Shown here: positions 2,486-5,540 of the stretch, piece by piece
Layout: every line of letters starts with the position of its first letter
How positions within the stretch are numbered: the stretch's first letter is position 1
Assembly (NCBI RefSeq): GCF_004155535.1
Contig: NZ_RYUH01000017.1
Location: 1-64,000, forward strand
Source of the DNA: Bifidobacterium pseudolongum subsp. globosum
Lineage (GTDB): Bacteria; Actinomycetota; Actinomycetes; Actinomycetales; Bifidobacteriaceae
DNA length: 64,000 nucleotides
Direction: 5' to 3'
The notes under the pieces: model-generated
What the model was told of the DNA's origin: nothing
Database searches by the model: none
The model's input: the letters and a program-made list of their open reading frames with translations, nothing else
Translations under genes and position numbers: made by a program

Positions 2486-3892
2486 CTACCGCTTGTCCGC
2501 CGCGTCCTTGCCGTATTTCCACAGGAGCAGTTCATTCACCGTCGTCAACACCGACGGGCCGAAATCCTTCTTGTCCAAATGCACCGACTCCAGGAAATCC
2601 TCGTTCTTCGAGAACGCGTTGCCCAGCAGCCTGCGATCAGTGTCGTCGATGTCGATCTTGTACAGCAGATTGGCCAGCGAGACAATGGCCTCGCTATGCT
2701 TCTTGTCAAAGTACTTTCCTGTGGAGAGCCCGAACTCGGTCAGGTCTTCTGGTGTGACCTTCGGCTGCAGTCCCAGAATCGGATTCACCAGCAATTGCGT
2801 GGAGGCGTTCATCAGATTCACATACGAACCAAGTTCGTACTGCTGGGCTTCGGTCATCTGGTTGTAGTCCAACCCGAACGACTTGGCGCGCGCAATGGCT
2901 TCCTCGAGACGGGGATTCTCGTCGTCTATGCGCACAATGCGTTCCTTGAGCTCCGTTTCCGCCAGCTTGTACGACTTGGTGTCGCGTTTGCCGATCAAGG
3001 TGAACACATTCTCGAGCTTCTTCTTCTCTTCGTTGCCCTTGTACAGCAAGAAGCCGCTGCCCAGCAACGCAACGCCGGCGATTGTCCAACCGATCGGCCC
3101 GCACATGGCCAGAAACGCATTGCCGGCGGCCATACCACCGCCGCCAGCCGCCAACGCACCGCCACCGAGCCAAGCGAGCGCCGCGTTGGTCGCCGCGGCG
3201 CCGCTCAACGCGGAGATGGCGGTGCCGGTGGATGCCACGCCGAACGTGGTGGCGATGCCCATCGCGGCGGTGGGAGCGAGCGCCGCAAAGGCCACGCCGG
3301 CGCTTACGCCGGCAGCACCCGCACCGGCGTTCTTCAGCGTTGCTTTCTTGTAATCATCTTCGATCTTCTGCGCCCGCTGCTTCCATTCAAGGCGAATCTT
3401 CTTCAGCTCCTCGTACTGGAGACGCTGCTCAGCGGGAATGTTCCTGATGGCGTCGAAGCAGGCTTGGATCTCGTTGAGGTTGTCGAAGAGCCGTGCGTCA
3501 CGTTCACCCAGCTCGACGATCTGCTTGTTCACCTTGTCCAACGCGTGCTGCGCTTCAGTGCGCGCCTCTTCCATCTTCGAGGGTTTCTTCTCGAAGGCGC
3601 CTTGGATGTTGCGGTTGATGTCCCCGGCGGTTTTGGAGACGTTCTCCCCCACTTGTGAGGCAAAGGCGCCCACGTTGTGCGACACGTTTTCCGCGGCGGA
3701 CGAGACGTTGCGCCCCACATCACCCGCGAAATTGTTGATGTTGCGGCCCGCCTCGCCTGCGGCCCGGGAGATGTTGCCACCCACATCGCCGGCGGCCTTG
3801 CCGACATTGTTCACCACGTCCCCTGTGGCTTTGCTTACGTTCTTGCCGATCTCGTTGAACGCATTGCCCATATTGTCGAAGAAATTGCTCAT
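2486..3892 (-). CDS. Unknown protein with eight tandem 11-residue amphipathic repeats and a glycine-rich hydrophobic segment
   Basis: Function not recognised. The 468-residue protein begins with eight back-to-back 11-residue repeats (residues 9-96) of the form x-x-A/F-A-G-D-V-G-x-N-V/I, for example GKAAGDVGGNI and NNFAGDVGRNV. Such 11-mers are typical of amphipathic helices that lie on lipid surfaces and of LEA-like proteins. A charged, coiled-coil-like stretch follows (about 100-190). Then comes a long Gly/Ala-rich hydrophobic region (about 190-285, with GWTIAGVALLGSGFLLY near its end), perhaps a membrane hairpin, and a soluble C-terminal region. No signal peptide. The ATG has AGGAG at 6-nt spacing. 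It starts 8 nt after the stop of the upstream gene on the same strand, so the two are an operon and likely act together. Confidence 0.75.
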   Translation of the reverse strand: MSNFFDNMGNAFNEIGKNVSKATGDVVNNVGKAAGDVGGNISRAAGEAGRNINNFAGDVGRNVSSAAENVSHNVGAFASQVGENVSKTAGDINRNIQGAFEKKPSKMEEARTEAQHALDKVNKQIVELGERDARLFDNLNEIQACFDAIRNIPAEQRLQYEELKKIRLEWKQRAQKIEDDYKKATLKNAGAGAAGVSAGVAFAALAPTAAMGIATTFGVASTGTAISALSGAAATNAALAWLGGGALAAGGGGMAAGNAFLAMCGPIGWTIAGVALLGSGFLLYKGNEEKKKLENVFTLIGKRDTKSYKLAETELKERIVRIDDENPRLEEAIARAKSFGLDYNQMTEAQQYELGSYVNLMNASTQLLVNPILGLQPKVTPEDLTEFGLSTGKYFDKKHSEAIVSLANLLYKIDIDDTDRRLLGNAFSKNEDFLESVHLDKKDFGPSVLTTVNELLLWKYGKDAADKR

Positions 3893-3900
3893 GGTCGCTC

Positions 3901-5334
3901 CTAGTTGTTGAAATATGCGTCGATGTCGGGTTTGGACGCCAGAATGCGGCCCTCCGGCACCTTGCGCAGTTGCGCCAACTGCACGGATTTTTCGAATGCG
4001 CGCTCATATGGCGCGCTGCGTTTGAAGTCTTCGGTGAAATCAACCAAGTGGCGGTCGTCGTACAACCTGCCAAGTTCGCGCAGACCATCAAGATAGTCTT
4101 CAACAATCGTGCGCTCGCGCCTCGCGAATTCCGCGTTTGGACCGGCGGTCTGCAATGCCACCGCCCGCATGCCCTCGCCGTACAGGCTGATGGCGAACCG
4201 GCCGGCCCCCACCAGGTTGAGCCGCATCACGAACTCCCGCACGTTGAATGTGCCGACGCCGGCAGCAGCGCCCCGGATTGCGGCATCCGTGGTGTCCAGC
4301 AGGCAGAACGTGCCATGCGCCACCGTGAGCATGCGCTGCACAGTCGAATTGGAGAATGGCTCGCACGCCTCCCACATGGCTTGCATGGAAAACTCAGCGG
4401 GATCGGTGGAACTGGCGTAAGCAAACAATCGCCGGACGGCGTAGAACAGCCGGGTGAGGGCCTCGTTGAGCAAGACCGGAACGGATTGCGCGGCGAAGAA
4501 CCGAACGTCATACCCCTGTGCGTAGATCTGATTGGCGAGCTGCTGGAAACGCTCAAGGAACTTGGGTGCGGGCAGCGGGACGTCCCGGGCGTGCATGGCG
4601 TATTGGTTGATCATGGTCCACACCGGCGTGGGGATGCCCAGCGCGGGCAGCGTCTGCTGCATGGCCTCAACGACATCGTCCCGGCCGAACAACTGGTAGC
4701 CAAGCCAATTGACGATGCCGCAGAACAGCTTCTCTGCAGGTGTATTGCCGTGCAAACCGGCGCCTGCATCCTTGTCATGCACAAAGTGGAGTTTGCCCGC
4801 ATCCCCGGCAGGGGCCGTGTTGGCGAATTCACCGAGAATGGCGAAGAAGACGCCGAACAACGACGGTTCGCGGCCGAATGCACGGAACGACCTGCTCCGG
4901 CTTTCCGGATCGATGTCTTCATCGAACAGCAGGCCGAGTTTCCGGGCATGTGGGGAATCAGCATCGGCAAGGAACTTGGTTGCGAGGAATGCCACGGCCG
5001 ACTGGATGCCGGATTGTTCGCCGTTCCAACCACACAGTTTCGCAAACGTCACCGTAGTGCGGCGCATCCACTGGAGCGCGGGCTCCTGCAGTTTCGAATC
5101 CCCTGGCGCCCCTACACAGAAGATGTCGATCACGCCGCAGAGTGCACCCGAGCCGGCCGCCAACGCATAGTCGAGTTGATCACATTCCGGCTGCAGCCGT
5201 TCGGCCAAAGCGATGATGTCATTCAGCTGGTTCAATTCCGCTTGCGCGACCTCGGCAGCCTGGGCGATGTACGAGCCGAATGCATAGTCGTCACCATTGC
5301 CGATGGTCAGGTCAAGTACAGCTGCGTCGCCCAT
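3901..5334 (-). CDS. Unknown protein, first gene of the two-gene cassette
   Basis: Function not recognised. The 477-residue protein has no signal peptide and no clear membrane span. It is rich in helix-forming segments, with a hydrophobic stretch near residues 50-65 (GSGALCGVIDIFCVG) and a central aromatic region around KLFCGIVNWLGYQLFG. No catalytic motif I know is visible. The ATG at 5334 follows GAGGGG at about 7 nt; an upstream in-frame ATG at 5361 lacks a Shine-Dalgarno. The next gene, with the 11-residue repeats, starts 8 nt after its stop, so one mRNA probably encodes both. Upstream is a non-coding segment full of inverted repeats. Confidence 0.75.
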   Translation of the reverse strand: MGDAAVLDLTIGNGDDYAFGSYIAQAAEVAQAELNQLNDIIALAERLQPECDQLDYALAAGSGALCGVIDIFCVGAPGDSKLQEPALQWMRRTTVTFAKLCGWNGEQSGIQSAVAFLATKFLADADSPHARKLGLLFDEDIDPESRSRSFRAFGREPSLFGVFFAILGEFANTAPAGDAGKLHFVHDKDAGAGLHGNTPAEKLFCGIVNWLGYQLFGRDDVVEAMQQTLPALGIPTPVWTMINQYAMHARDVPLPAPKFLERFQQLANQIYAQGYDVRFFAAQSVPVLLNEALTRLFYAVRRLFAYASSTDPAEFSMQAMWEACEPFSNSTVQRMLTVAHGTFCLLDTTDAAIRGAAAGVGTFNVREFVMRLNLVGAGRFAISLYGEGMRAVALQTAGPNAEFARRERTIVEDYLDGLRELGRLYDDRHLVDFTEDFKRSAPYERAFEKSVQLAQLRKVPEGRILASKPDIDAYFNN

Positions 5335-5380
5335 ATGTGAATCCCCTCGTATTGGACACACTCGTTATGATTACCCAACA

Positions 5381-5523
5381 TTGTAGTGGCTGGGTGCCTG
5401 CGCCATACCCATCTCGGCTGGGAAGGAGCATTTTCTTGGGGTGGAGCCAGTAGAAGCCACTACAAATGGCCGTGTTCCAGCCTTCATACTCGAGGGTGCC
5501 CCGGAAAATGCTCCTCCCCAGCC
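5381..5523. repeat. Nested inverted repeats in the gap before the two-gene cassette
   Basis: Two overlapping inverted repeats. TTGTAGTGGCT (5381-5391) pairs exactly with AGCCACTACAA (5455-5465). The 19-nt arm GGCTGGGAAGGAGCATTTT (5416-5434) pairs with 5505-5523 with one mismatch. Arms of the two pairs interleave, so the RNA could switch between two folds. Together with the terminator at 5541 this fills the 253-bp gap 5335-5587; no gene is seen in it. Confidence 0.75.
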
Positions 5524-5540
5524 AAAATAGGTGCGGACAT

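Follow-up and report, generated by a model that had tools for sequence, protein, structure and literature searches.

The two genes at positions 2486-5334 of the window, by which we mean the whole stretch of 64,000 nucleotides from Bifidobacterium pseudolongum subsp. globosum that was analysed, are a real and coherent system, a new Bunzi-type variant with a PDC-M09A effector. The reading that we favour from the sequences, and hold to be rather probable, is that of a divergent Bunzi-type anti-phage module in which protein A would be a membrane effector under the control of protein B, with eight 11-residue repeats in A acting as a tether. The defence reading is based on the distribution of the pair (plasmids, phage, integrative elements and loci with other defence genes) and on the matches of the two proteins to the BnzB and PDC-M09A models of PADLOC. 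The mechanism of Bunzi is listed as unknown in reviews (PMC12926258), and the B-A pair links Bunzi with the candidate system PDC-M09.

Locus layout and insertion site

Both genes lie on the minus strand, B first and then A. Gene B (3901..5334) encodes 477 aa from its ATG, with an alternative GTG start possible at 5361, and its product is assigned to the BnzB family by the PADLOC match and proposed as sensor/regulator. Gene A (2486..3892) encodes 468 aa, assigned to the PDC-M09A family and proposed as membrane effector on account of its PADLOC match and its position directly 3' of B. The first-pass annotation had described two coupled genes here, and both open reading frames were confirmed. Only 8 nt separate the end of B from the ATG of A, and the TAG stop codon of B falls inside the Shine-Dalgarno-like sequence of A (AACTAGGAGCGACCATG; overlap at 3893..3903, minus strand). 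Translation of A is likely coupled to that of B.

The copy in the window stands alone, with housekeeping genes on both sides. In most relatives examined the genes for alpha-glucosidase (agl) and ilvA adjoin directly with no cassette, and the cassette is found between them in the window clade and, in reversed orientation, in the Bifidobacterium genome G007. Between the window and G007 the flanks are 87-93% identical, compared to 74% for the core of A and 47% for B. The G+C content of the cassette is 60%, versus 65% for the window.

An inverted-repeat element with 34-nt arms (5407..5532, no strand assigned) lies between B and the alpha-glucosidase gene. Sequences resembling it recur at several further sites of the genome (contigs C1, C9 and C23), and the element, MITE-like or regulatory, is conserved in both subspecies of B. 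pseudolongum. The idea that it marks the end of a mobile unit was considered, but the far side of the cassette yielded no second copy, and the element is probably unrelated to the B-A pair.

Distribution and mobility of the pair

A survey of 112 genomes of the genus found relatives of A in 24 and relatives of B in 12. The separate pair is present in four Bifidobacterium genomes (the window genome, G034, G062 and G007). Fusions of B and A in a single chain of about 750-820 aa occur in seven others of the genus, where they measure about 780-820 aa, and in G221 and G392. These natural fusions make physical contact between the partners likely. In G001 (L047:4413-9233) such a fusion gene is split by two genes resembling an IS21-type transposase pair.

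Scanning of GTDB contigs yielded 70 B loci in Bacillota, Actinomycetota, Bacteroidota and Spirochaetota. A is present in 68 of them; in 66 it shares the strand of B and either abuts or overlaps it, so that co-occurrence of the pair, which had been put forward as a check of the original observation, is borne out across four phyla. The pair was located on plasmids of Lactiplantibacillus and Latilactobacillus (B 44% identical over 99%), in the genome of phage NatCom_3357 and, on two contigs with a viral label, beside serine recombinases. In a quick tree of B, families and phyla are intermixed, and identical or nearly identical copies are shared by Ruminococcus and Blautia and by Lysinibacillus and a Clostridiaceae MAG. 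The Bifidobacterium copies form a single supported group (SH-aLRT 97) nested in Bacillota, with a very long branch. The B-A pair is thus a mobile cassette, and it has spread among gut and dairy bacteria via plasmids and mobile elements. The intact natural copies on plasmids of lactic acid bacteria are testable in laboratory strains. Defence genes are modestly enriched near the Bacillota copies, where about 10 of the 145 neighbours listed gave strong PADLOC matches (E 1e-50), the figure for random regions of pair-carrying genomes being 2 of 135 proteins (one-sided Fisher P 0.023, with the gene count being approximate).

Plasmid, phage and recombinase contexts, tight coupling of two genes and a hydrophobic A would also suit a toxin-antitoxin system that stabilises its plasmid or element, with A as membrane toxin, B as protein antitoxin and phage defence incidental or absent. 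We regard this as unlikely: B is large, its invariant His/Asp motifs extend to canonical BnzB, chromosomal copies of the pair are common, and the existence of B and A as one chain in several genomes would be unusual if the antitoxin had to be lost for the toxin to be freed.

Relation to Bunzi and PDC-M09

The second protein had been described as belonging to no recognised family, which does not hold, as both proteins match PADLOC defence models. B matches BnzB with an E value of 4.9e-55 over profile positions 141-471 of 504, and a Bacillota copy of B does so at 7.5e-105; A matches PDC-M09A at 2.5e-77. Neither B nor A gave a family above cut-off in Pfam or NCBIfam. The first interpretation was to be given up if both proteins confidently matched a characterised family, and half of this was found, BnzB being a member of a tested system and PDC-M09 a PADLOC phage defence candidate only. 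Canonical BnzA-BnzB pairs on Lactococcus and Vibrio plasmids match their PADLOC models over the full length, which indicates that the Bunzi models work as expected.

Like Bunzi, the B-A pair consists of two adjacent genes, one of them related to BnzB, and one partner carries a Gly/Ala-rich hydrophobic stretch. The pair differs from Bunzi in that its second component is PDC-M09A and not BnzA, and B differs from the BnzB model in being without the N-terminal ~140 positions and in having an extra C-terminal tail. A did not match the PADLOC BnzA model at E 1 or better, and hhalign of the A profile against the BnzA alignment, with a probability of 7.5%, lent no support to homology of A and BnzA. 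Since A matches BnzA neither by model nor by profile, the pair is best described as a BnzB relative whose second component is a different one. A TerB domain is a feature of the Bunzi system (PMC10952713), and a Pfam search detected none in A, in B or in those Bacillota homologues of the two that were scanned. This is a weak criterion for Bunzi, however, because two canonical BnzA proteins also miss the Pfam TerB model. With PDC-M09 the pair shares a second component of the PDC-M09A family and, in B, the last 34 residues of PDC-M09B only; the body of the partner is BnzB-like and not PDC-M09B.

Conserved residues and C-terminal tail of B

The model of B is mostly helical. In 53 B proteins of the Bacillota type H148, H149, H155 and H213 are invariant; H148, H155 and H213 are also kept in the aligned BnzB row, and all four in the B-A fusions. 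In the window these residues are replaced (H148R, H149S, H155R and H213Y). The NHH...GHNP site of other members (residues 147-156; 4867..4896, minus strand) reads SRSFRAFGRE here, with all three His replaced, and at the NW.GH...SD site (residues 209-220; 4675..4710, minus strand) the His has become Tyr and D220 aligns only with a gap. D126 is kept, as are 92 of the 125 strongly conserved columns, and the B of G007 retains all four His. B may perhaps have been a metal-binding enzyme ancestrally, and it is fair to suppose from the substitutions that a metal or catalytic site has been lost in the window copy. In view of the HxxxD-like motifs of B, a zinc-dependent phospholipase or phosphatase was considered; this found no profile or fold support, and only the description as a possible metal site was kept.

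Among the three closest genomes dN/dS is 0.19-0.28 for B and 0.10-0.12 for A, compared to 0.01-0.04 for the flanking genes, and in B. pseudolongum subsp. pseudolongum DSM 20099 (G062, L183:4322-5752) an in-frame TGA is found at codon 25 of B. The B gene may be eroding in the window clade. Carried further, the loss of the four His, the very long branch, the stop codon that one of the clade's three genomes carries and the raised dN/dS could mean that the locus is the remnant of a working Bacillota system, in which the function of B has been lost in Bifidobacterium and the locus is drifting or A is being reused. It seems doubtful that the locus is such a remnant, given that dN/dS of both genes is still well below 1, that the C-terminal tail and most of the strongly conserved columns are kept and that both B and A have open frames in G034 as well as in the window.

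According to PADLOC, the last 40 residues of B match PDC-M09B. When 56 B sequences were set against the PADLOC profile and two sequences of PDC-M09B, this was narrowed to the conserved tail of residues 444-477 (3904..4005, minus strand), where the last 34 residues of B and the last 34 of PDC-M09B are 35% identical (profile-profile E 1.6e-5) and C-terminal in both; outside the tail, profile-profile comparison of B with PDC-M09B gave no match. The tail is absent from canonical BnzB and from the B-A fusions. It tracks the effector and not the body of the partner, and it does not occur where the two form a single chain, which suggests that it could be a docking element for A. One may tentatively extend this to a plug-in architecture, somewhat less probable than its opposite, in which PDC-M09A would be recruited by unrelated BnzB- or PDC-M09B-type partners via a common 34-residue tail, or by fusion, the Bifidobacterium version having an 11-mer lipid tether and a pseudoenzyme partner. 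The system would gain in interest if the docking idea were true, and the candidate tail and the set of conserved His/Asp residues are testable targets.

Core of protein A

The structure of A was modelled with AlphaFold2 using 57 homologues. Coiled-coil helices were predicted at residues 106-148, 154-191 and 287-338 with pLDDT mostly above 90. Residues 106-191 (3320..3577, minus strand) are the start of the conserved core and are conserved in the 57 homologues; pLDDT is mostly above 70 over this stretch and above 90 at 131-160. They are followed by the Gly/Ala-rich hydrophobic segment (residues 195-284; 3041..3310, minus strand), identified by hydropathy, in which two candidate membrane helices are located around residues 205 and 268. 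This segment is the most conserved stretch of the family, and the model has low confidence there. The coiled-coil and Gly/Ala-rich parts noted initially were thus both recovered, the latter with this reservation. A long helix (residues 287-338; 2879..3034, minus strand) then leads to a C-terminal helical domain (residues 345-468; 2489..2860, minus strand), which is present in the Bacillota homologues of the pair and mostly missing from the PDC-M09A of G005. A degenerate TerB was considered for this domain and discarded, as comparison with TerB gave no similarity.

Foldseek and VIA-align gave no significant structural relative for either protein, nor one for A among viral proteins; the models are of moderate quality (mean pLDDT 68 for A and 74 for B), so that a new fold should not be read into the lack of a match. 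PDB sequence profiles gave no match for the cassette proteins. Weak matches to ZorA, SMC and apolipoprotein were put down to coiled-coil or repeat composition. In layout, the long helices around a hydrophobic hairpin recall alpha-helical pore-forming proteins such as ClyA; the Foldseek E value of 2.9 is not significant, the VIA Z score of 5.5 applies to the 11-mer helices only and model confidence in the hydrophobic part is low. The proposal of a membrane-sensing or pore-forming pair stands in part, in that there is good support for two paired genes of which one encodes a membrane-associated protein, and pore formation is still among the likelier roles of A; lipid coating or stress protection as main function, proposed with it, is unsupported.

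The 11-residue repeats of A

The eight 11-mers of A run uninterrupted from residue 9 to 96 (3605..3868, minus strand), in agreement with the first-pass annotation. Identity at lag 11 is 0.385, while none of 5000 shuffles exceeded 0.26 at lags 5-24. The hydrophobic moment is 0.459 at 98.2 degrees, compared to at most 0.249 in the same number of shuffles. Repeat positions 3, 4, 7 and 11 are nonpolar in at least seven of the eight copies and position 10 is Asn in all of them. The region is modelled by AlphaFold2 as two long helices (2-47 and 52-99) with low to middling confidence.

The weight that was laid on the repeats at the outset was misplaced. The extension is found only in Bifidobacterium copies of the pair, including that of G007 with about ten 11-mers, and is absent from relatives outside the genus. 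Among the measurable A proteins from other genera the conserved core motif begins 18-57 residues in from the N-terminus, compared to about 120 residues in the window and other B. pseudolongum copies. By this comparison the ancestral A is taken to be a protein of ~366 aa without repeats, conserved as such, to which the 11-mers are a Bifidobacterium-specific N-terminal addition. A similar helix is carried C-terminally by the TerB-domain protein of a three-gene arrangement in about nine Bifidobacterium genomes, and N-terminally by a TerB-BnzB protein of G412. Because they are found on other proteins of related systems, such 11-mer helices look like a movable accessory. The strength of the repeat differs between members, the moment in L028 being not significant.

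The simplest reading of the 11-mers is that they are probably a membrane tether. With the helices of perilipin, apolipoprotein and synuclein they have in common the 11-residue period, a weakly hydrophobic face (Ala/Val/Ile) and the predicted helix. Homology to these is unsupported, the Pfam apolipoprotein-type models scoring far under their cut-offs (ApoLp-III 20 bits, cut-off 36.3; Apolipoprotein 19.2, cut-off 90), and A differs further in having 88 repeat residues only, joined to a coiled-coil membrane protein. In perilipin 4 a weakly amphipathic 11-mer helix coats lipid droplets, although a 66-residue stretch stayed cytosolic and longer stretches were required (PMC5889406). By analogy, membrane tethering by the 88 residues of A is plausible.

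The same textbook amphipathic helix, the sub-threshold apolipoprotein matches and the perilipin 4 precedent are what might speak for a lipid-coating or envelope-stress pair, in which the 11-mers would cover membrane or storage lipid and be protective under stress. All relatives of A outside Bifidobacterium are without the repeat, the distribution is patchy and mobile and the partner is a BnzB, and we consider such a function improbable.

Proposed mechanism

In the anti-phage reading preferred here, the effector would be A, a coiled-coil protein with a Gly/Ala-rich hydrophobic hairpin, held by B and docked through the 34-residue C-terminal tail. B would sense infection, change state and free A, which would then enter the cell's own membrane, so that the cell is killed or arrested and the infection stopped. 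In the Bifidobacterium branch the 11-mers may tether A at the inner face of the membrane, leaving less movement to be made upon activation. The window clade amounts to a natural experiment, a clade without the conserved histidines whose effector appears to have acquired an 11-mer anchor.

Related arrangements in other genomes

Several further arrangements were observed. In about nine Bifidobacterium genomes (L028, L030-L037) a PDC-M09B-like protein, with weak PADLOC matches, is encoded together with a TerB protein and a short PDC-M09A-like protein; the TerB protein carries the C-terminal 11-mer helix, and a nitrilase-like gene adjoins in several of the genomes. This three-gene cassette is possibly a further unnamed system. 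At L027:5929-8210 (G050) the protein encoded after a 499-aa relative of PDC-M09A has 261 aa, in which no partner domain was recognised. A 460-aa protein at L044:6979-8361 (G091), detected only via the repeat, has a C-terminal 11-mer helix without the PDC-M09A core. At L064:6675-8612 (G412) an N-terminal 11-mer-like helix, a TerB domain and a BnzB domain are joined in one protein of 645 aa.
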